From: Lytechinus variegatus
Taxonomy: Eukaryota; Echinodermata; Echinoidea; Temnopleuroida; Toxopneustidae
DNA: 64,000 nucleotides
Assembly (NCBI RefSeq): GCF_018143015.1
Contig: NC_054741.1
Span: forward strand, 40,948,510 to 41,012,509
Direction: 5' to 3'
Of the stretch, positions 31,518-54,347 are shown piece by piece. Under the pieces are notes generated by a model, which was given only the letters and a program-made list of their open reading frames with translations, was not told the origin of the DNA and did not search any database. Positions within the stretch are counted from its first letter, which is position 1. Every line of letters starts with the position of its first letter. The position numbers and the translations under genes were made by a program.

Positions 31518-32905
31518 GTCTCACCTGTGAAGCAGAGTGAGACTATAGGCGCCGCTTTTCCGACAGGGGCTGCATCAACACCAAATCTTAACCGAAGGTT
31601 AAGTTTTTGAAATGACAGCATAACTTAGAAAGTATATGGACCTAGTTCATGAAACTTGGCCATAACCTTAATCAAGTATTACTGAACATTTTGCCTGAGT
31701 TTTATGTCACATGACCAAGGTCAAAGGTCATTTAGGGTCAATGAACTTAGACCATGTTGGGGGAATCAACATCAAAATCTTAACCAAAGGCTAAGTTTTT
31801 GAAATGTCATCATAACTTAGAAAATATATGGAGCTAGTTCATGAAACTTTGACATAAGGTTAATCAGGTATTGGTGAACATCCTGCCTGAGTTTTGAGTC
31901 ACATGACCAATGTCAAAGGTCCTTTAGGGTCAATGGACTTTGGCCAAATTGGGGTATTTCTTGAAATACCATCATAACTTTAAACGTTTATGGATCTGAT
32001 TCATGAAATTTGGACATAAAAGTAATAAAGTATCACTGCACATCCTGTGCGAAATTCAGGTCACATTATCAAGGTCAAAGGTCATTTAAGGTCAATTAAC
32101 TTTGACCAAGTTTGGGGTATTTGTTGAATTACCATCATAACTTTGAAAGTTTATTGGTCTAGTTCATTAAACTTGGACATAGAGTAATCAAGTATCACTG
32201 AACATCCTGTATAAATTTCAGGTCACATGACCAAGGTCAAAGGTCAATGAACTTTGGCCCTATAGTAAGAGTAATAAAGTATCACTGAACATCCTGTGCA
32301 AATTTTTGGTCACATGACCAAGGTCAAATGTCAATGAACTTTGGCCATGTTGGGGGTATCTGTTGAATTAACATCATAACTTTAAAAGTTTATGGATCTG
32401 ATTCATGAGACTTAGACGTAAGAATAATGAAGTATCACTGAACATCCTGTGCAAGTTTCAGGTCACATGATCAAGGTCAAAGGTCATTTAAGGTCAATGA
32501 AATTTAGCCATGTTGGGGGTATTAGTTGAATAACCATCATAACTCTGAAAGCGTATGGATCTAGTTCAGAAAACTTGTACATAGAGTAATCAAGTATCAT
32601 TGAACATCTCATGTGAGTTTCAGGTCACATGACTAAAGTCAAAGGTTATTTAAGGTCATTGAACTTTGGCCATTTTGGAGGTTATTATTAGATTGCTGTC
32701 ATAACTTTCAAAGTTTATAGATCTAGTTTGTAAAATGTGGATATAGGGGTAATCAAGTATCACTGACAAGTCGTAGGTTGTATGATCAAGGTCAAATGTT
32801 ATTTAATCTCAGTGAAAATATTATTGTATCATTATATGAATGGTGTTTTTTGTGAATAATTATTTGACATTAGTTTTCAAAGTCAGCACTGCTGCTATAT
32901 TGATC
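31518..32905 (+). mobile_element. GTCTCAC-family DNA transposon, long copy
   Basis: Starts GTCTCACCTGTGAAGCAGAG, then TATAGGCGCCGCTTTTCCGA. About eight ~165-bp modules follow, and it approaches the distal end (AAAGTCAGCACTGCTGCTAT) but lacks the terminal GATGCAGGTGAGAC. Four modules contain an exact AAGGTCAAAGGTCA. Serves as the uninterrupted reference for the nested copy at 41078-53535. Confidence 0.75.
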
Positions 32906-34374: not shown

Positions 34375-35460
34375 AATCCTAACATTGTAATCCCAGGGGA
34401 CCTTAATGGCCCCCTCAAAACTTTATATGAAAATCCATAAACATGACAGGGCCATGCCAGATTATTCAAGACTACTTTTGGGGTGCATGCATGGGTATTC
34501 GGTTATGATATTACACAACAAATGCATGTCAGACCCCGAATTGCTCAAAAGCACAATTTTATGTATAAAGCAAACGGGCAGTTCTACGGGGTGCCAGGTA
34601 AAAATGGCAGAGGTAATAATGGCAGAGGTAATAATGGCAGAGGTATAAATGGCAGAGGTAATAATGGCAGAGGTAATAATGGCAGAGGTAAAAATGGCAA
34701 AGGTAAAAATGGCAGAGGTAAAAATGGCAGAGGTAAAAATGGCAGAGGTAAAAATGGCAGAGGTAATAATGGCAGAGGTAAAAATGGCAGAGGTAAAAAT
34801 GGCAGAGTTAAAAATGGCAGAGGTAAAAATGGCAGAGGTAATAATGGCAGAGGTAAAGATGATAAAGATAGGCTACATTATAATAACTATCATCCATGAC
34901 CGGACTCTTGTCGACGAAATGGGCTATAAAAACTGATTAAATATTATGTTGTTTTTCGTCATTTAAGATCTATACTCTGTCATTTATATGACTAATCTCA
35001 AGCATTTTCTTGCCAAAATGATTTCAATTAGTGACTGCATGATGAAAGGATCGTAAGCAGAACAACGCTTTACATACAAACCCAATGATTTTTTTTATGT
35101 AAACACCAATATGTGCAGCCACTAACCCTCTGAAACGAACAAGTTCGGGTCTACTTCGAACTACTTTCATAATTTAACCTGGATAAAAAAATAACTGAAC
35201 ATTCTGTAATAATTTTTTATTTTTTTATTTCCACATCATGATGGATCATGATGAATAGATATTGATGTCACTGGCAGATCCATGTTGCACGGCTGGCCCG
35301 TGCCCCCCCCCCTCTTGAGAGGTACAATTAAAATCTTAGCAAATTTGCTAACTCAAGTGTGCCCCCTTTTTAAAGCGAGACCCTTCTCTGCCTGCTAATT
35401 ATTTTTGTGGAAGAGTTAGTAGGCGAAAAACTTTTTTGCGTGTCATTTTTCAGGAAAAAT

Positions 35461-37244: not shown

Positions 37245-37674
37245 GTAATGAATTAAGTACAATTGCGATCAAGAGTGTGCTTCAAATTTGAATATTAATA
37301 CAGCGATTTGACATGAAAAGGCTGCCCATGACAGTCCAGAAAAAAATAAGATATTCCAGCCAAAAGATTATCAATTTGGTGCAGACGATCTATCTATGAT
37401 TTTAAAAATGTCCCCCTTTCCATTATTTTTACTTTCTGAGAACCTTTCTTAGTTGATCTATGTAGGGCTTACATGCGGGGGCTTTTTGATTTTTTTTCAT
37501 GGGGGTTTAAGACACTTTTTACCTATACCATTATGACCTCTGCCATTTTTACCTTGCCATTTTTACCTCTGCCATTTTTACCTCTGCCATTTTTACCTCT
37601 GCCACTTTTACCTCTGCCATTTTTACCTCTGCCATTATTACCTCTGCCATTTTTTACACCGAGCAGTTCTACGG

Positions 37675-39964: not shown

Positions 39965-40460
39965 AAGGGGAAGTTCACCCTGAAGAAAACTTTCTGGTAA
40001 AAATAGCAGAAAAAATAGTAAAAAATATTGGTGAATGTTTGAGGAAAATCCGTTAAAGAGTAAGAAAGTTATTAGAGTTCAAAGTTTTGGATTTGTGACG
40101 TCATAAACGAGCAGCTGTCCCATGTGTTATGTAATATAAAGTGCATAAATTTCAAATTTTGTATGGTTCCTGATGACTTAATTTTCTTTTCTTTTCATGA
40201 TCGGGTGTGAAACGATTTGTCTATTGATATACAAAAGTTACAGTGAAAATCATTTTAAATTTTCTGAGAAAATGACATTTTATTGATTTTTTACCATTCG
40301 CTATGTAGGAATGCTGCTCGCATATGACGTCACAAATCAAATAACTGAAATTCTAATAACTTTTTAATTATTTGATGAATTTTTCTCAAACCGGCAATAT
40401 TTTTCATTAATTTTTCTGCTATTTTTACAATAAACTTTTTGTCAGGGTGAACTTCCCCTT
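39965..40460. mobile_element. complete AAGGGGAAGTTCACCC MITE
   Basis: Near-perfect inverted ends (AAGGGGAAGTTCACCCTGA / TCAGGGTGAACTTCCCCTT) continue inward for about 60 bp. It is flanked by TA at 39963-39964 and 40461-40462. Length is 496 bp and it is non-coding. Probably a Tc1/mariner-mobilised family given the TA target. Confidence 0.85.
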
Positions 40461-40822: not shown

Positions 40823-41077
40823 CATTGTGTATTTTATTCAGATCAACTATTTGATTGAGACTCATTGCTTGTGACAATCGACTTTGTTTGTGGAGCGGTG
40901 GTGGAATGGTGTGGGCTTGAGAAAATTGGAAGGCTTTTCTCAAAAGGACGCCGGGTAGAGGGAGGGGAGTCAAATAAATGCATCCTTTCGAGACAACTCG
41001 GGTACAGTCAGTCAGTCGGCAAGCCCTAAAAAAGTAGCTTCTTATATCCAGATGATATTCATGACGAGAGAGTTTTT

Positions 41078-41363
41078 GTCTCACTTGCATAGCAGAGTGA
41101 GACTATAGGCGCCGCTTTTCCGACGGCGGCGGCGTCAACACCAAATCTTAACTTAAGGTTAAGTTTTTGGTATGACAGCATAACTTAGAAAGTATATGGA
41201 CCTAGTTCATGAAACTTGGCCATAAGAATAATCAAGTATTACTGAATGTTCTGCCCGAGTGTCAGGTCACATGACCAAGCACAAAAGTCATATAAGGTCA
41301 TTGAAGTATGGCCATTTTAGAGGTAATTAAAAGATTACTGTCATAACTTTTAAAGTTTATAGA
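41078..41363 (+). mobile_element. GTCTCAC-family transposon, left part (outermost level of nest)
   Basis: Begins GTCTCACTTGCATAGCAGAG and follows the 31518 copy, though it skips most modules, to TTTATAGA. The sequence resumes at 53332. This is the oldest insertion of the nested complex. Confidence 0.8.
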
Positions 41364-42262
41364 TGTTACAAGTCATGTCTATCTATGCCAGTGACTCAAA
41401 TATTTTGTCTTGGTCATGCATCTTTTCCTTTTGTCCATAGTTATGCAGTGCAGTTGGCTATTAGCACTTTTCATTTGTGTGTGCATAACTCAGTGAAAGG
41501 TAGCTTTAAATAGACTTCCACTTTCTAAATTCTAATCCCTATTGAATGTTAGGATGGTTCAGATAGTTTTCTTGCAAGGGTTTTGTTATAAGCAGGTGAA
41601 TGCAATATTTAAGTAGCTTGGGTTTAGAATGGAATTCTTGTAAGGGAGGAACCCTAGTTAAAATTGATAGTTGTCACTTGAAGCTTAGGAATCGGAGAGG
41701 CAAGACCTCCGAGTTCACTCTAAGAGCAGCCGTAGCAGCTAGCCTGCTAGGGTTTGGTAGCATCAGCTAGGCCGACAGGGTCGGGCGACGACAGCATGTT
41801 TAGGCTGTACATCTGGAAACAAGGCGTGGCAGTTTCTTATATTTTTCTAGCTATGTTGCACCACATTTGTCGGTTACACTTTGTAATTCCGAAGGTTCGT
41901 AATTCCGAAACACGTAAATTGCCTATACCTCGATGTTCGTTAATCCGAAAACGGAAAAGGGTTCGTTAATCCGAACATTTGTGGCGTTATTCCGACGGTT
42001 TGTTATTCCGAAGGTTCGATAATCCGAAAACAAAAGAAGGTTCGTTGTTCCGAAGGTTCGATAATCTGAAAACGAAATAAGGTTCGTTGTTCCGAAGGTT
42101 CGTTAATCCGAAAACGAAATAAGGTTCGTTGTTCCGAAGGTTCGTTAATCCGAAAACGAAATAAGGTTCGTTGTTCTGAAGGTTTGATAATCCGAAAACG
42201 AAATAAGGTTCATTAATCCGAAAACAAAATAAGGTTCGTTAATCCGAAAAAAGAAAACCGGG

Positions 42263-44150
42263 AAAGCAGAGGCAGAGGCAAGGGGGGGGCAGGGGACACT
42301 GTTGCCGTTCAATTGTTATGAGGATGGGAAGGCAAGGGCTGCCGAACAAATTTTCGTTGGGGGGTAAAGTCAAAAAATGAAACTCATACGTCAAAATGGG
42401 CACTTTGGTGATATTTTCACCTGAAGATTATCATCTGCTTGAAGTCATTGTGTGTTTGATAGTGATTAAGTAGAGAAAAACTTTTTTGAAGTGACTAATT
42501 ATTATGGCAAAATGTATATTTAGGCTTTATTTTTCGGGAGAGAGTATAATGAGCGAGCGGCTTGGTATTAAACAAATTCAAAGGTGAAGTTGTAAAACGT
42601 TTTGGGGGGTCAATTATTCTTAAAATGGCATTATTGCGAGGTGTTGCGAGCGTGAATCACAAGCTAAAACTTTAGGGTATTTCAATAAAAAATGAAAATA
42701 AGTTTTTAAAAATCCGAGAAGATTTCTGCCGTCATTAAAAAGATGTGCATCTAGCTAAAAAATTAACACGAGCGCAAAACGCGAGCTTAAACATATAGTG
42801 ACCAGAAAAGAAACCTGGTTAAAAAAGCATTTAGTGACCTCTTTAGGATGCATATTTCACCAATCGAATGAGAGTGCGAAGCGCAAGCTGAAAATTTGCA
42901 ATATTCCAGCCTCAAAACTTAACTTGTATACTTAAAAAGAGTATTTCATTTTGAAAAAAAAAACATGAAAAACTGCATATTTATTTTTGAAAAAGGAACT
43001 TTTCCATTTTGGAAAATATTCATTTCCCTGTTTTTTATTTCATTTTTGGGGTGCAAGTGCCCCCTGCCTCCCTCCCAGCGGATCCAACATTCGTCAAATA
43101 GGGGGGGCAATTTTTTTTCAGATATATTTTCCTCGATTGGCAGCTTAAAGTTGATTTTTGTTTGTTTCTTTGAAAGGGTAGTCCTAACAGTCAATAATTA
43201 GCTTTATACTAAAGTAAATATGTAATAACATGATAAACCCTTTTAAATAATGCGAGTGCGAGCTATATATTTTTTTATATGATGGGCAATATGTTTGTGA
43301 TCTTCAAAACGAGATGCCTGTGTAACTAAATTTAGATAATAACTGCGAGCAAGAAGCGCGAACAGAAATTTTAAATATATAAGCTCTGACCTGATCTAAA
43401 GGGGACATTTTAAGAATTTTTTTGCAGTTAGCCATGAAGAAGATGGGTGTTTCAACCAGTGGCGGCAGAACGTATTTTCCTTCTTTTTTTTGGGGGGGGG
43501 CAAAGCCCAAAAAGGGGCCAGTAGGGGCAATTTGGTGCAAATGGATATTTTCACCATGAGATTATGATCTGTGTAAAGAGGTGTGTTTTGTAGTAATTAA
43601 ATTGAGCAAAATTTTTTGAGTGATCACTGATTGATAAGTTATATATTTATGTTTCATTTCTGCGAGCTTAGCGAGCAAGCGGTTTGGGGGAAAAATCAAA
43701 TCTGAAGATGTAAAATTCGCCTTTTTGGTCAATTACTGATAAAAGGGCATCCTTGTGAGATGTTGCAAGCGAATCACGTGCTCAAACTTTTGGAAATTTC
43801 ATGTAGGCCTAGAATGATAATAATGATAATATTGATAAAGATATTATTTATCCAAGGAAGCCACTTCAGTTCTGAAAACTGTTCTCCCAGCTATTGTTTT
43901 TTTTACAAGAATGCTTAGAATGTCCAGTTTTCAGGTTGGAAAATCGGAAAAGTTTGGCTCACGTTTCTCGCTCGCATCAAGTATTGTTTATTGAGGAACT
44001 CATTCTATTCCTGGTTAAAAAAAAATGAAATGTCCAGTTTTCAGGTTGGAATATCACAAATTTTAAGCTTGTGGTTCGTGCTCTCATTATTTAGTTCGTG
44101 AAATAAATATTCTATTCATGAGTCACTAAATGCAGTCCTTAAAAGATTAC
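42263..44150. repeat. interior of fold-back element, ~1.1-kb diverged repeat
   Basis: Two diverged copies (about 42400-42690 and 43520-43810) share 'gatattttcacc', 'gcgag..gagcaagcggtttgg', 'ggcat..ttgygagrtgttgc'. Many 'gcgagc' strings are present. No transposase or other coding region. Confidence 0.5.
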
Positions 44151-44158
44151 TTTCTGAA

Positions 44159-44313
44159 GCCTGTTGCATAAAACTTTTTACCTGAGAAAACTCTGGTAAA
44201 AACTGAAAACTAAGGTTAGTCTGATTTCCGCCATTGACTTTAGCACAGGGCAAAAACTCCGGTAAAAACAACCTGAGTTTTCTCAGGTAAAAAGATTTAT
44301 GCAACGGGGCCCC
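44159..44313. mobile_element. small MITE with GTTGCATAAA ends
   Basis: Inverted arms GCCTGTTGCATAAAA / TTTATGCAACGGGGC continue through CTTTTTACCTGAGAAAACTC on both sides. About 155 bp. Confidence 0.75.
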
Positions 44314-44689
44314 AGGTCAGTATATAAACAAATTACAGCTCGCCCTCGCATTAATTCTTTCGAAAGATACCGGTACACATCTTTCTCAGGATTACAATAA
44401 ATGCTCAGAATGTTTAAGTTCACGTCTTGTTACATGAAATGTCTACTAGTTTGAGCTTGAGATTCGCGCTTTCAACATCTCACAAGGATCATTATTAGTA
44501 TTATTTCTATTTTTATTACCAGCAGAAGCTGTTATTAAAAAATGACATCCCCTCCAATACAAATCCTATTATCTAGAGGTTACTCGCACGCGACCAACAC
44601 ACTTGATCCCCTGCATCTTTAAACCATTTGCTTAGGCAGCAATTGCTCAGATAAATCGAAATTGGCCTATGCTTGATCAGGGCGCCTAT

Positions 44690-45128
44690 TCTTAATGAAA
44701 TATACATGCATTTGACCACAACACACGCATGTATCAACGCTCTAGCCGGGGAGTTGTCTGACCCGTGGGTCACTGAGTTTGGGGTACCCCAAGGGTCAGT
44801 TCTCGGGCCGATTCTGTTTAGTTTGTATATCACTCCCATCTCTGACATTATTAATAAACATGGTCTACAGTATATTTGTTATGCAGATGATATACAAAGT
44901 ATTGTTCCCTTGACCCGCGCTCTTTTGAAAATATAAATGAAACACTTGCGAAAACCTCACTTTGTATTTCAGAAATTAGTAGGTGGATGTCATCTAATTA
45001 TCTCCAGCTGAATAATAGCAAAACTGAATTCACAGCTCTTTGTTCTTCTGCCCGCCATCTGCAATCAATATCACATATCCAGCTTAATGTTAATGGTCAA
45101 TGCATCCCCATCTCCACTAAAATTACTG
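44690..45128 (+). mobile_element. L2/CR1-like LINE, reverse-transcriptase part
   Basis: The frame encodes the reverse-transcriptase core [17 protein letters not shown] followed by the catalytic YADD box (ICYADDIQ), then, after one frameshift near 44925, ISRWMSSNYLQLNNSKTEF. It is 5'-truncated: everything upstream of the RT fingers is missing. The sequence stops at ATTACT where the Ngaro element enters and resumes at 50382 with FLGVCIDN. The LINE therefore predates the Ngaro insertion and is inactive. Confidence 0.85.
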
Positions 45129-45240
45129 GTTCATCCTCCAACGTTCACAGCATAAGTCTTACAAATCTCTCATTACAAACCATAATGCACCAAAAAACCA
45201 AAATACACGTTATTTTGGGATTAGCCTGCCAAGCTACTAG
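45129..45240 (-). repeat. Ngaro split direct repeat B2
   Basis: A 112-bp copy of the repeat at 45819-45930 differing at about two positions. It marks the left boundary of the element against LINE sequence. Confidence 0.85.
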
Positions 45241-45597
45241 CACGATCGACCCGGCGAGGTCTTTATTCAGTAATATCAAATAATCAATACATTTGACAAC
45301 ACAGTTGTCATAAAAATAAGATATGTCACAAACGCGAAAACAAACCAATTGCTTCTTCAGTATGTGTTTTAAGGTACATCATCTTCGTATAGGTTTTATC
45401 CTTTTTAATCCTAACACGGGAAATTTGACTCTAACATTTCCCTATCCTATTAGCCCAGGCTGAAAAAACAGAGATAAAAACTAATAAGCGCAAAAACTCT
45501 GAAAAACCCTAGGCTATTACAAACGTTGTTACCAGACATAAAACGAAATAATGGATTCTTAAAATATTAACTCGGGTAACTAATTGGTCTTTTTTAT

Positions 45598-45930
45598 AAA
45601 AAGACGTGCTAGTTCTATGCTATAGAAGGCTAGAATGATCCTCGGCGTTCTCTACGCCCAACTCAAGAATCTACTTCTTTTCATATACAAATTACCCTAT
45701 ACGTCACATTCAAATTACCCAACGTCGTCAAGTCCGCTACGCTTGCCTGACTTAGCATTCATACGTTGCCGTCTAAACAATATTTACCAGCTATACTCCG
45801 TAACGCTGGAAAATAAATGTTCATCCTCCAATGTTCACAGCATAAGTCTTACAAATCTCTCATTACAAACCATAACGCACCAAAAAACCAAAATACACGT
45901 TATTTTGGGATTAGCCTGCCAAGCTACTAG
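45598..45930 (-). repeat. Ngaro contiguous A2 and B1 repeats
   Basis: 45598-45818 (A2, 221 bp) is followed without a gap by 45819-45930 (B1, 112 bp). In this family the joined pair is the template for the circular intermediate. Confidence 0.85.
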
Positions 45931-46305
45931 AATAAACTACAAAGAAGGGCGGTATTTACATTTAACTTCATTAAATATATATGGACCTAATTTTGACCAG
46001 TTACGAAAATTAGAGCATACATATGTGCTCGTGTCATGTGATGACGTATTCAAAAACTGATAAAATTCTAATTTGTTAAATAATTGAAATATTGATGAGC
46101 GATAGAAGCTGTTACATTAAAAATTTAAACTATTCTGAATCGAAAGTAATTCATACATTCTATATAAGGCATTTTATTATCATTGTCATATCCAACCTGA
46201 ACTTCGAACGTAGGTTAGTCTCAAATGGAATGCAATTAAGAAACAATAAATAAAGATATTATTCCTCAATTTGGAGAAATCAATATTTATAATAGATGTA
46301 CCACA

Positions 46306-47208
46306 TTACAAACCAAGAGCTTTCGATACAGATAATCTATCCTGTAAGCTATCCTCTACGTAGCCGTCTTTGGCTCTCTCACCTTTCCACCTACCATGTC
46401 TTTTCCAGACCCTGTCATTCACCTTGCTCCTTGCGGCGGCTTTGGCCCCGCTAGCTCTCAAGGAGTGTAGACCAATTTTAGCGTCTTCACTACTCACTTC
46501 CTTCAAACGAGCTACTACTGTTTCTCGTGTTCTAGTATAACTCATTGATTTATTTTTATGTATCAAGAACTTTCCTCTCCGGTTACCATAAGCGGGCTTA
46601 AATAAAAAATGATCTGAGGCAGAATTAATCCCTGTGCTAAACATATATCTCTTCAAGATACTGACAGGGCATGCGTTTGTTTGCCCTTTACTTATAACTA
46701 CCTCGTCTCCTTTTCTGTATTGATCAGTTTTACTTTTACAAATTTTTACAGACATATAATCATCGAAGAAGGTAATATCATTACACTTGAGTGATCGCGC
46801 TTCGTCGAATCTGAAGAATCCGCTGTAACAAAGTGTGATAAATGCGAGATCTCTCAGAACGAGAATGTCTTGTGTATCTTTATACTTGTCGCAAAGGTTG
46901 ACTATCTGCTCATTCGTTAAGATGTCCTTCTTCGTCGTTTTCGTGTAACTTTTTCTCTTAGCGGCTTCCACCAAATGAACTACAAAGCCATTGGTCGTCG
47001 AATCGGCTAGACCCTTCAGTTTATGAGCCCATTTGATGGCGTATAAAGCGCCTTGGATAACTGTTGAGGACTTACCGGCGTCAATCAAACTAGTTAAATA
47101 TAAAGCAATGTGTATAGGTTCAGCAGGTAGCGCCCTCTGCGCCCTCAGCGTTGATAAATTCTTCGAACTTTTTGAAACTACAGAAGTAATTGTTGGTTGT
47201 ACCTTCAC
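46306..47208 (-). CDS. Ngaro tyrosine recombinase
   Basis: About 300 residues of a tyrosine-recombinase (phage-integrase fold) protein: an N-terminal core-binding part followed by the catalytic domain, with recognisable blocks such as LCYSGFFRFDEARSL and GLHSLRASGAKAAARS. In these elements the recombinase inserts a circular DNA copy, in place of the integrase used by LTR elements. It lies downstream of the RT/RNase H frame, the family's usual order. The start is not clear. It looks whole. Confidence 0.85.
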   Translation of the reverse strand: MKVQPTITSVVSKSSKNLSTLRAQRALPAEPIHIALYLTSLIDAGKSSTVIQGALYAIKWAHKLKGLADSTTNGFVVHLVEAAKRKSYTKTTKKDILTNEQIVNLCDKYKDTQDILVLRDLAFITLCYSGFFRFDEARSLKCNDITFFDDYMSVKICKSKTDQYRKGDEVVISKGQTNACPVSILKRYMFSTGINSASDHFLFKPAYGNRRGKFLIHKNKSMSYTRTRETVVARLKEVSSEDAKIGLHSLRASGAKAAARSKVNDRVWKRHGRWKGERAKDGYVEDSLQDRLSVSKALGL

Positions 47209-47339
47209 TCCTGGAGTCGACTAGATGGGTTGCCATGCTATCTGCTAATCTCAGCAGCTTGCCCGAAGCCCCAGAAGCCAACACTTCGTTTTTGATTGAT
47301 GTTCGTAGTCCTAAACCTGCAAAATATGAATAAGAATGT

Positions 47340-50141
47340 CTAAAAACGTAATTTCAAAGCAACCAGGGAAAACCGTTGTCCCACGGAACCAAAAATACCG
47401 TTGTTTCCTTTTCCTTTCATAATTTCTTGACATGGAAATAAATAACTTTCTTTCACAAATTGAACAAATTTTCCTCCTTGGTAAATTTTGGGCCAGAATG
47501 GAGCAGATTCCCACACAGGAACAATTAAGGTACCCTCTGCCCTTTCTTTCACTATTTTTCCAATTGCTCTGGCAGCTAAACGAGGTGGAGGGACCCACCA
47601 ATTGATTTCATTAGCCCAGGACTGTTTGAAAGCATCAACACCTTCTGTACTGGGGCATCCCCATCTCGAATTAAATCGACTGCATTTTGCATTGTAATCA
47701 CATGAAAATCTGTCGACCACATGTGGTCCCCATATTTGGTTCAGATATTGAAATACATCATGGCTAATGCTCCAGTCATCACTGTCTGATATTCTACTAA
47801 GACTGTCTGCCATAACATTCATTTCTCTTGGAATCCAAACCATATCTATGCCCAATCCATAAAGATCGCATGTATCATGTATCTCGATTGCTATCTCTTG
47901 CAGTTGTACATTCTTACTGCCTCTCTGAACTATGCTAGTAACGTTTTTGTTGTCTGTGTAACAACGAACATCCTGCCCTTCCAGACACGGACCGACTGAT
48001 TTCAGAGCTCTATTTAACGCTTCGATTTCTCTCCATGAGGAACTATATTTCATTTCGGAGTCTGTCCATGAACCGACCACTTCCAGGTCTGGTATTTCAC
48101 TAACATACGCCCCGAATCCAGTGCCCGACGCATCGGTGAATAAACAGCAATTACATGACTTTACTCGTGAAATTGATACACCGTTAAGCCTGTCTAAGTG
48201 TTTATACCAGAACAATAATTCTGTAACCGCTTCTCCTGTAACTAATACGGGGGCGTTCCAAGAGGCTCGGTTATTGATGCACTTAAATATTTCTTTTGAT
48301 TTCAATTGAACTATTGTACCAATTGCCGGTTGCATAGAAATTATCTGGCCTGCTACGCTGGCCAAAGTTCGAACTGGTATTATATATTTTCCTTTTTGGA
48401 TTTTTGTTAAGACATCTTCAATTGACTTTTTGCATTTTTGCATCCTTGTTTCTGTGATGTAAACATCTCCCTCGTGAAAATCCCAATACATACCTAGCCA
48501 TGTCGCTTTATTCTGGGGAAACCAATCGCACTTGGTCTCAGCTAATACAAATCCCAGCTTATTTAGATCGGCCTTGATTTGTCTGCTCATTTCGTTTGCA
48601 ACTTTCATGTCACTACAACCAGCAATCCCATCGTCTAAGAACATGACAACCTTCTTTCCTTGTGACCTCCAATAAGTAACTGGTACTCTGGTTAATTTTG
48701 TGAAGATGTAACCAGCAGTAGATATACCGAAGGGTAAAACATTAAAGACAAAGTATCTCTTCTGACCATGGAACTCCCAACAAAAACCTAAATATTTCCT
48801 ATGTTCTTCAAAAATCTCCACATGATGGTATGCTGATTTAAGATCGAATGTGAAAACGTTATCCCCTTGCTCAAAAATATCCCTAGCAACCGAGGCATCT
48901 TCATACTTAAATTTGTTCTTGTACAAATGTGGATTGACATGTCTGCAGTCTAACACTAATCTAAGTTTTCCCTTGTTTTCAGAAACGGTTAAGGGGTTAA
49001 CCACTGATGGCTTAAATTGTACTTCTGAAACACAACCTCTTTTGAACAATTTCCCGATTTCTCCCTGTACGAAATTTGAATGGTTACGTGCGGATATGTT
49101 ATTAGTGAGTTCTCTATCATCAGGCAACGTGTGTAAAGGCAATTTGTAACCGTTCTGGATCACGTCTAAAATCTCTTTGCTAGCACCGAATTCGGCCCAT
49201 GCACTAGCATTTTCTTTCAACTTTCCAACAGGAGAAACATTCTCCTCTCTCGAGTCTACCAACTCAGTATCTTGACCCTCAGCTTCTTCATACAACTTTG
49301 TATTTTTAACTTGTACAATTTCAGATATCCCTTCTATTTCTTTTTGGGATGAACTCTCAGATACTATCTTGTTATGCTCAACAAAAAACTTAGATTCACT
49401 TATCTGATCTGAACGGCTTCCTCTGATGGACGGACAATCCACCTTCCAGTGGCCTGGTTTTCCGCATGAAAAACAGATCCCGGGCTTCTTGCGTTCTTCT
49501 GGTGTCGTACGACCGAAGGGGGTATATGATGTGTAGCTAGATGTGGAGGGGCCTTGTTCTTTCTGGGAACCTGGGTGGCTCTTCCATGGCGAAGCTCGAT
49601 ATCCGCTATAAGGGAAGTAACGCCTCCTTTCTGGCTTCTTAGATTTCTTCGCTTTTCTTTCCGCCCTCGCCTCGGCTTTGAACATGCGTTTTTCATCGTC
49701 TGAGTCGTCGGCTAAAGTATTCTGCTCGTACTCATCGACAAGTTTCCATCCCAACGGCGACTTGTCGGCCATTTTGATGAGCTTTTGTCGTTTTTCTATG
49801 ATGTCTATACCTTCGACTATCTTTTCCTTAGCATCTGAAACTGCTGATGGCCTGTCCTGAGATCCCTCGAGGTAATGATTGGCTTCCACGAGTTTTCTAT
49901 GAATCTTAACGTTGACCTTGTGCTGTTCTTCATTTCCTCTCCTCTGGAATTTATAGTCGTCGGAATGCATTTCCCGAATCTTCGCGACCTGGGCGTCGTT
50001 CAGTATCTTCTGGGTTTCTCCAAATGATTGTTGAAAATTGTTAAGTCTGCTTGAAATTAAATTATCTAGTTCGGATAGAAGATTGTTCTGAGACTGACTC
50101 ATCTTGACATCAATTAACTCTGCGACTTTCGACGGATCCAT
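47340..50141 (-). CDS. Ngaro gag-like / reverse transcriptase / RNase H polyprotein
   Basis: A single 933-codon frame starting at ATG 50141. In order: coiled N-terminal gag-like region, a basic segment, a CCHC zinc knuckle (CFSCGKPGHWKVDC) near residue 220, reverse transcriptase (about 340-580, FLDDGIAG), RNase H (about 660-790), and the C-terminal block found in Ngaro and DIRS proteins (DRFSCDYNAKCSRFNS; TLIVPVWESAPFWP). It should copy the element's RNA. No break was noticed. Confidence 0.88.
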   Translation of the reverse strand: MDPSKVAELIDVKMSQSQNNLLSELDNLISSRLNNFQQSFGETQKILNDAQVAKIREMHSDDYKFQRRGNEEQHKVNVKIHRKLVEANHYLEGSQDRPSAVSDAKEKIVEGIDIIEKRQKLIKMADKSPLGWKLVDEYEQNTLADDSDDEKRMFKAEARAERKAKKSKKPERRRYFPYSGYRASPWKSHPGSQKEQGPSTSSYTSYTPFGRTTPEERKKPGICFSCGKPGHWKVDCPSIRGSRSDQISESKFFVEHNKIVSESSSQKEIEGISEIVQVKNTKLYEEAEGQDTELVDSREENVSPVGKLKENASAWAEFGASKEILDVIQNGYKLPLHTLPDDRELTNNISARNHSNFVQGEIGKLFKRGCVSEVQFKPSVVNPLTVSENKGKLRLVLDCRHVNPHLYKNKFKYEDASVARDIFEQGDNVFTFDLKSAYHHVEIFEEHRKYLGFCWEFHGQKRYFVFNVLPFGISTAGYIFTKLTRVPVTYWRSQGKKVVMFLDDGIAGCSDMKVANEMSRQIKADLNKLGFVLAETKCDWFPQNKATWLGMYWDFHEGDVYITETRMQKCKKSIEDVLTKIQKGKYIIPVRTLASVAGQIISMQPAIGTIVQLKSKEIFKCINNRASWNAPVLVTGEAVTELLFWYKHLDRLNGVSISRVKSCNCCLFTDASGTGFGAYVSEIPDLEVVGSWTDSEMKYSSSWREIEALNRALKSVGPCLEGQDVRCYTDNKNVTSIVQRGSKNVQLQEIAIEIHDTCDLYGLGIDMVWIPREMNVMADSLSRISDSDDWSISHDVFQYLNQIWGPHVVDRFSCDYNAKCSRFNSRWGCPSTEGVDAFKQSWANEINWWVPPPRLAARAIGKIVKERAEGTLIVPVWESAPFWPKIYQGGKFVQFVKESYLFPCQEIMKGKGNNGIFGSVGQRFSLVALKLRF

Positions 50142-50160
50142 GTTTATATCGGAAGCTCCA

Positions 50161-50381
50161 AAAAAGACGTGCTAGTTCTATGCTATAGAAGGCTAGAATG
50201 ATCCTCGGCGTTCTCTACGCCCAACTCAAGAATCTACTTCTTTTCATATACAAATTACCCTATACGTCACATTCAAATTACCCAACGTCGTCAAGTCCGC
50301 TACGCTTGCCTGACTTAGCATTCATACGTTGCCGTCTAAACAATATTTACCAGCTATACTCCGTAACGCTGGAAAATAAAT
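50161..50381 (-). repeat. Ngaro split direct repeat A1
   Basis: A 221-bp repeat that reads identical to 45598-45818 over its full length. It marks the right boundary of the element, after which the LINE frame resumes. Confidence 0.88.
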
Positions 50382-51185
50382 TTCTTGGAGTATGCATTGA
50401 TAACATGTTCACACTGTCTGCTCAAGTACATCAGGTTGTCCGTAATTGTAATTATCATCTCAGCAATTTGTGGAGGATTCGTAGATTTATTGATCTTAAG
50501 ACATGTCACCATGCTGTGCGAGCACTTATCCTTTCTCGGTTAGATTACTGTAATAGTTTATATACTGTTTTGTCAGCTAGAGATAGAAGAAAACTTGGGG
50601 TTATACAGAATCGTGCCGCTTGTTTAATTTTTGGCTTTGGATCCTGAACTCATACTACACCCCTACTTAAGGAACTCCACTGGTTACCTCTATTCCAACG
50701 CATTCAGTTTAAAGTCTGTTTATATGTATACAAAACTCTAAATCAATTAGCACCTGAATATCTTAATAATACCATCAAATTATACACACCCTCTCGTAAT
50801 CTTCGTTCAATCACTGACACATGCAGACTTTGCATTCCCTTGTCCAAACTCTCCTCTGCCGCAAAACGGTTTGCTGTAGCAGCTGCCAAGACTTGGAATG
50901 CTATCCCTCTTTCAATAAGAAATGTTTCCAGTGTTCTTGGCTTCAAATCATCCCTTAAGACATACCTTTTTCCTCAATAATTAATATTTTCCTTTTTATC
51001 TTGAATATTGTATAGTAATCATTGCAAATATTAAATGTTTCCTACTTTTGTACGCGCTATGGTACTTTTTGTTTTTAGCGCCTCTAAATACCCATTATTA
51101 TTATGTATCATTGATTGTTATTACTATCATTGCATAATATCGTGTAATTTTGTAATGACAACATCGTTTTTGTTACCAAAATGAA
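50382..51185 (+). mobile_element. L2/CR1-like LINE, C-terminal part and 3' end
   Basis: Continues the LINE with FLGVCIDNMFTLSAQVH, LILSRLDYCNSLY and, after one in-frame TGA at 50644, KELHWLPLFQRIQFKVCLYV..AKTWNAIPLSIRN..FKSSLKTYLF and a TAA at 50978-50980. This is the conserved end of L2/CR1-type ORF2. The untranslated tail has AGCGCCTCTAAATACCC and ATTATTATTATG, resembling L2-type 3' ends. Confidence 0.85.
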
Positions 51186-52399
51186 TTATTTTCATTTTCG
51201 GAAATACGAACCTTATTTAATTTTCGGATTAACGAACATTATTTCGTTTTCGGATTAACGAACCTTCGGAATTACGAACCTTATTTCGTTTTCGGATTAA
51301 CGAACCTTCGGAATTACGAACCTTTTTTCGTTTTCGGATTGATGAACCTTCGGAATTACGAACCTTATTTCGTTTTCGGATTAACGAACCTTCGGAATTA
51401 CAAACCTTATTTCGTTTTCGGATTGACGAACCTTCGAAATTACGAACCTTATTTCGTTTTCGGATTGACGAACCTTCGGAATTACGAACCTTCGGACTAA
51501 CCGAACCTTCGGAATTACGAAGCTTCGGAATTACGAATGTATGCGCATTTGTCTGTACCGGACATGGGCTGCTCCGGTCTTCCAAGCTTTCTTGTCACCA
51601 GTTAAACTGTAAGTGAATTTGGATTGTTACTTTTTTGTAATAGTTTTATAAGCCAAATTGTTGAGATATATTTATGAAGAAGGAAATCAAAGTTTATGGC
51701 TACATTGAAATCATTCAAATCATTAATGATTGATTCAAATTTGTAGTATTACATATGTATGCTTTCCATAAGTGGAATCAAGAGATTATAGATAACTAAA
51801 AGGTCATTTAACTTGAAGCTGCTCAGGTATATTATTGCAAACATTTTAAATAATTTATTCTTTTAAGTTCGATTATTATCCTTAATTGTCAAAGATATTA
51901 ATTGTTCTTTTACAAAATGGACGTTGCTTAGTATAAACATTTGCTTGTCATGTTACTAGAAATCAGGAGTTATATGGAAATAGCATGAGGCTGAATATTC
52001 TTGATTGTTCTTGTGATTTGAGATATTTATAGTATAAAGGTGAAGCTTAGGTCTTGTTAGGGATAGGTAGTTTTTATGCCTTGGTATTTTATTATCTGTA
52101 GATGGCGTTAACCCTGTTGATGTTGACCATGTTGACGTTGATGTCGACAGTTATAAGGACGACGCTATGATGTCCATTAAGTGAAGGCCTTTCTCAAGCA
52201 TAGAGGTGTAAACCCGATGTAAACTACAGTATTATGTTAAGTCTACACTAGTCAAGTTGAGTCAGTCAAGGCAAACGTCGAAGGACTTCGGCCATGTTAG
52301 ACGGTCAACGAGTTGATTCAAATATTCCAAAGAAGTTTGTCAGATCAGGTTCCATATTTTAAAGAAATGAAGATATAGAAATAAAAGAACTTTGGACTT

Positions 52400-53001
52400 T
52401 AAAGGTCAAGTCCACCTCAGAAAAATGTTGATTTGAATCAATAGAGAAAAATCAGACAAGCACAATGCTGAAAATTTCATCAAAATCGGATGTAAAATAG
52501 GAAAGTTACATTTCAAAGTTTCGCTTATTTTCAACAAAATAGTTATATGAACGAGCCAGTTACATCCAAATGAGAGAGTCGATGATGTCACTCACTATTT
52601 CTTTTGTTTTTTATTGTTTGAATTATACAATATTTCCATTTTTACGAAGTTGACGATTAGGACCTCCTTGCCTGAAGCACAAACTGTTAAAATAATGGAA
52701 TTCCACGTGTTCAGGGAGGAATGAAACTTCTTTTCACATGACAATGACGAGAAAATAAGAATATTTCATATTTTATATAATAAAATACAAAAGAAATAGT
52801 GAGTGAGTGATGTCATCAACTCTCTCATTTGGATGTAACTGGCTCGTTCATATAACTATTTTGTTGAAAATAAGCGAAACTTTAAAATGCCATAACTTTC
52901 TTATTTTACATCCGATTTTGATGAAATTTTCAGTGTTATGCTTGTTGAATTTTTCTCTTTTTATTCAAATCAAGTTTTTGTTGGGGTGGACTTGTCCTTC
53001 A
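52400..53001. mobile_element. MITE, AAAGGTCAAGTCCACCCC family, in putative solo LTR
   Basis: Nearly symmetrical: AAAGGTCAAGTCCACCTCAG is mirrored by GGGGTGGACTTGTCCTTC, and arms about 200 bp long share 'ccgattttgatgaaattttc' and 'gctcgttcatataactattt'. Two ORFs of 61 and 90 codons are arm translations. Confidence 0.8.
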
Positions 53002-53331
53002 AGAAGTAATAAAGTAGACTGTTTGGTTATATTTGGATATATGGATCATTTATATAATGTATTGATCAGGAATAGTTAGTGGTTGCATTAATGGATTGTA
53101 TTGCAAGGTATGGTCTCCATTGAATTTCATGATTGTTTTATATTGAACACTTTTCCATATTTTGATGTTTTGAAGTAATGTAATTGTTCCAAGGAACACT
53201 TGAACTTGAAGATTGTAATTAAATTTAATTTCCTTGAAATATTGTCTCCATTGTTACTCTGTCTGAGTTCTGTAGTTAAGAAGTTGCCACTGGACCAACA
53301 AGTCAATCACACCCTCCCCATGGCTGTGACA

Positions 53332-53535
53332 ATAGATTTAGTTTATAAAGTGTGGATATAGGGGTGACCAAGTATCACCACTGACAAGTCTTAGGTTGCA
53401 TGATCAAGGTCAGTTATTGTCAATGAACGTAGTATTGTATCATTATATGAATGGTGTTTTTTGTGAATAATTATTTTATGGTAGTTTTCAAAGTCAGCAC
53501 TGCTGCTACATTGAATCGCATGATGCAGGTGAGAC
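53332..53535 (+). mobile_element. GTCTCAC-family transposon, right part
   Basis: Resumes with ATAGA and runs through GTGGATATAGGGG to the terminal GCATGATGCAGGTGAGAC. Colinear with the 31518 copy, confirming that 41364-53331 is an insertion. Confidence 0.8.
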
Positions 53536-54347
53536 TGTCAGAGGTGCTCCACTTGTTCCTTCTCCATTCATCTCTTTTCTTTGTCTCCTTTATTTCACCC
53601 TCCCTTCCTTTCCTTTTCTTTTTTTTCCTTTCTTTATATTTTTCTTTCTTTCTCCATTTCTTTCCTTCATATTTTATAATTATTTACAGTGATTCCATTT
53701 TATTTTGTGCCACGGTCACAAAAAGTCCATGAAAATGTATGAGAGAGGAAATCATTCAAATAGCATACCAACACGCTAATCTCAGTCATGGCCAGCAAGA
53801 TAAAATCACTTTGAAAAAAAATACAGCTTTACAAATACAAGGTACATCAGTTCATGTTAAAAAGAGGAAAAAGGCAATGGTACATGTCCATAGAACAACA
53901 CTTCTTTCCTTTAATTGGTAAAATCTTGGTTTGAAATATTTTTTTGGGGGGCAAGTATTTTCCAAATACTTATAAAAAAAGGTTATGTAGCACCCTGTAC
54001 ACGATTAAGTACATTTGACATCTTAGATAAAGGATACCAAAAAAAAAAATGGCCTTCAATGCCCTTCTTTGAAAAAGATTTTGGCCTGGTGCCCTTTGTA
54101 GTGGCTTTGGTGCCCTGAAATATATGAGGTATTTCAAGGCCAAACTGGCCTTGCCCGAAAATGATGCAATTTAAGGCCTGGAAAAGGATCCATATAAAGA
54201 AGAAAAAAAAAGACTGGTTGACCTATTGTTTTTTTCTTTGTGGCAAACATACTTTTGGGGTGCTTACCCTAGTTAGCATCAACACCAACATATTTATAAA
54301 TAACGGGGGCCACTGAGTATTTTTTATAATGGAGGGTTGAGCTGAAT
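53536..54347. other. no gene recognised
   Basis: CTTTCTTT-type pyrimidine run at 53570-53670 and scattered A-rich sequence; short frames only. Confidence 0.3.

Follow-up and report, generated by a model that had tools for sequence, protein, structure and literature searches.

How did one spot in the genome of the sea urchin Lytechinus variegatus come to hold several transposable elements lying one inside another, and can the order in which they arrived still be read? The question is raised by a block at positions 41072 to 53554 of the window, by which we mean the whole 64,000-nucleotide stretch of DNA that was analysed (C2:40948510-41012509, C2 being contig NC_054741.1). A prediction made from the letters alone, hereafter the original prediction, had proposed five nested insertions there in recoverable order. 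We found the elements to be nested five deep, and comparison with undisturbed copies at every junction supports a legible order of arrival, with a HINE-like element first, followed by a long terminal repeat (LTR) retrotransposon, a fold-back DNA transposon, a long interspersed nuclear element (LINE) and a PAT-like retrotransposon. All five of the predicted insertions are present, but a sixth, a 604-bp miniature inverted-repeat transposable element (MITE) at 52399-53002, had been overlooked. We put at about 95% the probability that six independent transposition events at one spot explain the block.

Results

The searches took in the 869.57-Mb genome (33 contigs), and the figures given below for copies of each family come from the best 40 scored candidates per query and hold among the matches so listed. 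The four element-in-element junctions were confirmed, and for every one of them uninterrupted copies exist elsewhere in the genome. The window contains 0 N bases, and no assembly break falls at any junction. Each junction had been expected to be readable against a copy in the same window; this was right for the junction of the LTR with its host, which an in-window copy at 31518-32905 also runs through, whereas the other empty sites were found only elsewhere in the genome. Pieces of the fold-back, the LINE, the LTR and the innermost element had no match (E up to 1e-5) in the 304.5 kb around and including the window, except in the block and its second copy. An Rfam scan of 41000-53700 returned nothing at gathering scores.

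The outermost element, which is the host of all the others, occupies 41072-53554 as a whole, with GTTTTT at 41072 and GTCTCAC at 41078, and is split into two parts:

41072-41358, plus strand: HINE-like element, 5' part, with the T-rich start GTTTTT, a 13-bp subterminal repeat, a hairpin and the start of the central unit
53337-53554, plus strand: HINE-like element, 3' part, with the 13-bp subterminal repeat ending at 53535, then a decayed short palindrome and the end

When joined, the two flanks (485 bp) align end to end with two other loci, L007 and L003, whose elements measure 475 and 481 bp and whose alignments run to 488 and 491 columns. These are the two single-unit read-throughs among the six other host loci compared (L003 to L008); the stretch at L004 spans the host junction, and L005, L006 and L008 have other repeat arrangements. 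The element had been predicted to end at 53535, but conserved family sequence runs on to about 53554: past GTGAGAC, the same sequence, GCCAGAGGC included, recurs in four other copies and in one copy within the window.

The anatomy of this host looks like that of a HINE, a non-autonomous Helentron. The subterminal inverted repeats, GTCTCACTTGCAT at 41078 and ATGCAGGTGAGAC ending at 53535, agree at 12 of 13 positions (13 of 13 in L008), and beside the 5' one lies a hairpin, GTCTCACTTGCATAGCAGAGTGAGAC, which folds at -7.9 kcal/mol. The candidate 3' palindrome, GCCAGAGGC, is kept in L003, L005, L007, L008 and the in-window copy at 1457-2547; its stem is 3 bp long (-1.4 kcal/mol), and it is decayed in the split copy. 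The window's other copies have central tandem repeats of 162 to 163 bp, in arrays at 1516-2250 and 31799-32766; the split copy has one unit. GTTTTT or ATTTTT precedes all six of the starts compared, with no clear duplication, although a GTT common to both ends in five of the six host copies compared could be a short one.

Into this host was inserted an LTR with TG..CA ends (41364-53331), itself later interrupted twice:

41359-41363, plus strand: ATAGA target-site duplication (5 bp), left copy
41364-41863, plus strand: solo LTR, 5' part, starting TGTTACAAG
51554-52398, plus strand: solo LTR, middle part
52399-53002, plus strand: MITE of about 604 bp, near-palindromic, inside the LTR and missing from three other LTR copies
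53003-53331, plus strand: solo LTR, 3' end, ending TGTGACA
53332-53336, plus strand: ATAGA target-site duplication (5 bp), right copy

The perfect ATAGA duplication on both sides, together with the read-through copies of the host, bears out the predicted split of a GTCTCAC-family element by a solo LTR. We call the LTR solo because no second LTR occurs in the 304.5 kb compared. Its family is sparse, with 36 match rows for the 5' piece and 32 for the 3' piece, the block and its second copy included. Three other LTR copies run through both the fold-back site and the MITE site, and two of them, 1690 and 1707 bp long, are flanked by 5-bp duplications (atgga and gatac, respectively); in a fourth other copy examined, L039, the match is confined to the 3' part. 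Contig C17 has an LTR end and, about 5 kb further on, an LTR start, with TTTGGGGGCTCGTCC, which is like a primer-binding site, directly after the LTR end and a purine-rich tract, AGAAAGTGAGGGG, just before the start of the second LTR. The former resembles a tRNA-Pro primer-binding site. For the first of these two LTRs, the 5' part is absent from the match rows of the 5' piece, and the C17 element is known here from its edges. The MITE is present in 38 other scored copies at 95 to 97% identity.

The larger of the two interruptions of the LTR is a fold-back element spanning 41872-51545, with 42-bp repeat arrays in its inverted arms:

41864-41871, plus strand: 8-bp duplication CATTTGTC around the fold-back, left copy, read from the sequence
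41872-42255, plus strand: fold-back left arm, 42-bp repeat array
42256-44728, plus strand: fold-back middle domain, with no listed open reading frame (ORF) of at least 120 amino acids
51111-51545, plus strand: fold-back remainder, the end of the middle domain and the right arm with its 42-bp array
51546-51553, plus strand: 8-bp duplication CATTTGTC, right copy

The predicted inverted arms and arrays were confirmed, and three LTR copies are uninterrupted at the site, reading CACCACATT, then T or C, then GTCTGTACTGG. The limits of the family fix the duplication. At the left end, 38 other rows begin matching between 41866 and 41872, 18 of them at 41872; at the right end, 38 other first-ranked rows end at or beyond 51545, three exactly there, and lower-ranked rows that stop earlier are matches within the repeat array. 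Because the family ends map to 41872 and 51545, the duplication is CATTTGTC, identical at all 8 positions, rather than the likely 13 bp that had been predicted; lengths of 13 and then 11 bp were dropped once these ends had been mapped. A second fold-back copy, at 14.623 Mb on C2, has the duplication CATTTGGA/CATTTGGT (7 of 8), and in a third, on C1, the left end was not reached and no duplication was read. The middle domain is abundant, with 38 other copies at 90 to 95%. Elsewhere in the window, inverted arrays of a 15-bp repeat at 34596-34861 and 37516-37654 are possibly another fold-back, which we take to resemble the sea urchin TU elements.

The middle domain of the fold-back is in turn split by a LINE (44737-51102), putatively of the L2/CR1 clade:

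44729-44736, plus strand: LINE target-site duplication ATGTATCA (8 bp), left copy, read from the sequence
44737-45128, plus strand: LINE, 5'-truncated, 5' part, reverse transcriptase fragment
50382-51102, plus strand: LINE, 3' part, with a short (ATT)n tail at its end
51103-51110, plus strand: LINE target-site duplication ATGTATCA (8 bp), right copy

All 38 of the other scored fold-back copies are empty at this site, their sequences corresponding to the two LINE flanks lying 7 to 29 bp apart, and the one copy that was read by letters has a single ATGTATCA there. These results agree with the predicted position of the LINE in the fold-back interior. When three pieces of the LINE were scanned with Pfam, one gave RVT_1 at 42.2 bits and the other two gave nothing, nor did the chimeric frame at 50198-50644; a search of solved structures with one LINE piece gave one chance-level match (E 0.52).

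The innermost element is a tyrosine-recombinase retrotransposon that lies on the minus strand within the LINE:

45129-50381, minus strand: tyrosine-recombinase retrotransposon, PAT-like, 5253 bp, no target duplication
50161-50381, minus strand: split direct repeat A1
47340-50141, minus strand: ORF of 933 amino acids with zinc knuckle, reverse transcriptase, RNase H and Dam-like methyltransferase
46306-47208, minus strand: ORF of 300 amino acids, tyrosine recombinase; first start codon GTG
45819-45930, minus strand: split direct repeat B1, abutting A2
45598-45818, minus strand: split direct repeat A2, identical to A1 at 221 of 221 positions
45129-45240, minus strand: split direct repeat B2, identical to B1 at 110 of 112 positions

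That this retrotransposon splits the LINE, as predicted, is borne out by its split direct repeats and by other LINE copies: among 37 other rows, at least 27 run across the site, and 19 of these have exactly four bases more than the query (the search used the flank join without ACTG, and spanning rows were tallied by hand). One LINE copy read by letters has CTACTG directly followed by TTCTTGG at the empty site. Both long ORFs are open, and the best other copies of the element are 98 to 99% identical over a 521-bp end query. The linker between A2 and B2 is 357 bp (45241-45597) and is common to other copies of the family. An earlier value of 95% for B1 and B2 was an artefact of register; aligned from the mapped start, they agree as listed above.

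Three LINE copies have a match that starts exactly at the retrotransposon site (C18:10094176, C3:59276196 and C3:75017852) and are perhaps 5'-truncations a few bases upstream. A preference of the retrotransposon for this LINE site, at which these rows hinted, is unsupported, because no other of the 40 rows joins A1 to the LINE; that join was found only in the block and its second copy. A LINE copy at C8:29960084-29962545 is interrupted by about 2 kb of other sequence, no more than about 11 bp from the retrotransposon site.

We then considered to which class the innermost element belongs. It had been called a Ngaro element, and the reverse transcriptase and RNase H, the tyrosine recombinase and the split direct repeats that this name implies are all there; the methyltransferase domain is at odds with it. 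By domain content and the published keys, the element looks PAT-like, a reading that we favor at about 3 to 1 over Ngaro because these keys give a methyltransferase domain to DIRS/PAT and deny it to Ngaro (PMC4157794 and PMC9210276). The same stretch of the 933-amino-acid ORF matches a DNA methyltransferase in three libraries: Pfam Dam (cut-off 28.1; 29.6 bits when the entire ORF was scanned, 34 bits when the piece was scanned by itself), an NCBIfam phage N6A methylase (E 9.3e-7, with a score of 28.5 bits that falls well under the curated cut-off of 97) and a PHROG DNA methyltransferase (E 2.6e-8). A search of solved structures with the methyltransferase piece gave no match. The zinc knuckle, which accords with the zinc finger of PAT-like Gag, is a zf-CCHC match of 27.1 bits (cut-off 20.8). 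A Ngaro identity, in which the methyltransferase-like match would be vestigial or typical of the polyprotein tail in general, would account for the A1-B1A2-B2 arrangement, since an internal repeat pair downstream of the recombinase is the Ngaro layout in the published description (PMC4157794). We regard that identity as doubtful, if the strongest of the alternatives considered here, given the three library matches and the reported absence of such a domain from Ngaro. The position of the internal repeats, downstream of the recombinase, also means that the PAT-like element is not of the nematode PAT form.

The same contig has a near-identical copy of the block 163 kb upstream, with all junctions present and 23 mismatches in 13.9 kb, and the possibility was weighed that the nesting arose at another place, or in a different order, and that the finished block was moved here whole by segmental duplication. 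C2:40730564-40880753 matches C2:40881254-41043533 (window part 35368-64000), and a base-by-base comparison from 40778000 onward (40731815-40777999 left out) gave five blocks at 98.2 to 99.7% with several size differences. The edges of the match fall at a 500-N gap: the right-hand contig opens directly after the gap at 40881254, a base that corresponds to 40730564, and the left-hand contig closes directly before it at 40880753, a base that corresponds to 41043533. Because the limits of the match coincide with the contig ends on both sides of the gap, the second copy is probably an unmerged contig overlap of about 150 to 160 kb, with two haplotypes probably set side by side, and is likely a false duplication. 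A real tandem duplication broken at the seam would look much alike. The second copy nevertheless carries every junction, which places the nesting before any duplication, and no third near-identical copy of the outer part was found among the best 40 scored candidates, the next full-length row being at 86%. Neither was any whole-block copy found that lacks the intermediate junctions. We consider transfer of the finished block unlikely. That the junctions are assembly chimaeras is highly improbable even in a region that is hard to assemble, with a contig overlap and a gap nearby, since perfect duplications at three levels, together with empty sites that are clean, are not what misjoins would be expected to give, and both assembled copies concur at every junction.

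Three further observations concern this neighborhood. At 40133-40136 the window lacks an insertion of about 3.2 kb that the other copy has, bounded by GGGCCTGTTTCA inverted ends and an AATA duplication; the haplotypes are probably polymorphic for it. The start of the right-hand contig occurs a third time, near-identical and inverted, about 1 Mb off (C2:41856641-41857843, minus strand). Upstream of the window, C2:40915117-40921612 is a tandem repeat of about 1565 bp whose copies are about 99% alike.

Discussion

Read from the outside in, the junctions, duplications and empty sites suggest the following history, in which the mechanism of each insertion is taken from the anatomy of its family. 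A HINE-like, non-autonomous Helentron-type element would have landed in a T-rich site. An LTR retrotransposon would then have entered it with a 5-bp duplication and been reduced to a solo LTR, its internal region presumably lost by LTR-LTR recombination. The fold-back DNA transposon may next have entered the LTR with an 8-bp duplication, and the MITE would have entered the same LTR separately, the two in either order. A 5'-truncated LINE would have followed into the fold-back, again with an 8-bp duplication, and last the PAT-like tyrosine-recombinase retrotransposon would have entered the LINE between ACTG and TTCTTGG, cleanly and with no duplication. The best near-full-length identity to another copy rises inward, from 86% for the host through 90 and 91% for the LTR, 95 and 96% for the fold-back and 98% for the LINE to 99% for the tyrosine-recombinase element, and appears to lend soft support to the nesting order.

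Several points weigh on the other side. The identity trend was drawn from the best 40 scored candidates per list; rows of partial length go up to 90% in the case of the host and, over 56 bases, to 98% in that of the LTR, and the median of the tyrosine-recombinase family (94%, 11 near-full rows) is lower than that of the LINE (96%, 27 rows). At the innermost site, ten of the 37 other LINE rows were left out of the spanning count: six begin to the right of the site (three exactly there), and four reach it partly or cross it by a few bases. A third LTR copy (L037; 1117 bp, with an internal deletion) is without a clear 5-bp duplication. The evidence comes from a single genome assembly, and the sole second whole-block copy seen is probably the same locus reported twice.

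What the locus provides is a compact, resolved record of five transposon classes with four documented empty sites and with divergence that broadly agrees with the nesting, and such a stack can help to fix a relative time scale for the repeat families of this genome. More tentatively, and at somewhat less than an even chance, the PAT-like element may have been mobile recently and may encode proteins that include a Dam-like methyltransferase, and the series of family activity in the stack (HINE, LTR, fold-back, LINE, PAT) may be valid genome-wide. The seemingly paralogous neighbor block is probably an assembly overlap, which calls for caution in copy counts or duplication searches here.

Among known fold-back transposons, those most like the present one in general build are the sea urchin TU elements, reportedly described by Lieberman in 1983 (cited in PMC4079207), and Tetris of Drosophila. 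The repeat unit here is 42 bp, versus 220 in the fold-back comparison with TU and Tetris. According to PMC4079207, Tetris has long arms composed of tandem repeats, a non-coding middle and duplications of 8 to 10 bp, and the fold-back here is like it in its inverted arms of tandem repeats, its middle without a long ORF and its 8-bp duplication. The host is labeled HINE-like because its anatomy matches the published description of HINEs, which names subterminal inverted repeats, an inverted repeat by the 5' one, a T-rich target and no clear duplication (PMC7492417 and PMC4067079). It resembles HINE and DINE-1-like elements, including oyster Cg_HINE and Pearl, in its subterminal and 5' inverted repeats, its central repeats of about 160 bp (in sister copies) and its T-rich target, and it differs in having a 3' palindrome with just a 3-bp stem and, in the split copy, a single central unit. 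The innermost element shares its zinc knuckle, reverse transcriptase, RNase H, tyrosine recombinase and split direct repeats with both PAT-like elements (Pat1, the echinoderm form) and Ngaro as PMC4157794 outlines them; the methyltransferase-like domain sets it apart from Ngaro, and the 357-bp linker between A2 and B2 is a further difference. Nested insertion is a well-known process, and nothing here is new in principle, but the record is unusually complete. Interruption analysis, TinT and REANNOTATE are published methods that use nested transposable elements for relative dating, and our reading shares with them the premise that, where one element splits another, the split one must be the older (PMC2517846, PMC3014933 and PMC2672092). 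It differs from such dating in that five classes stand in one stack and every empty site has been identified.

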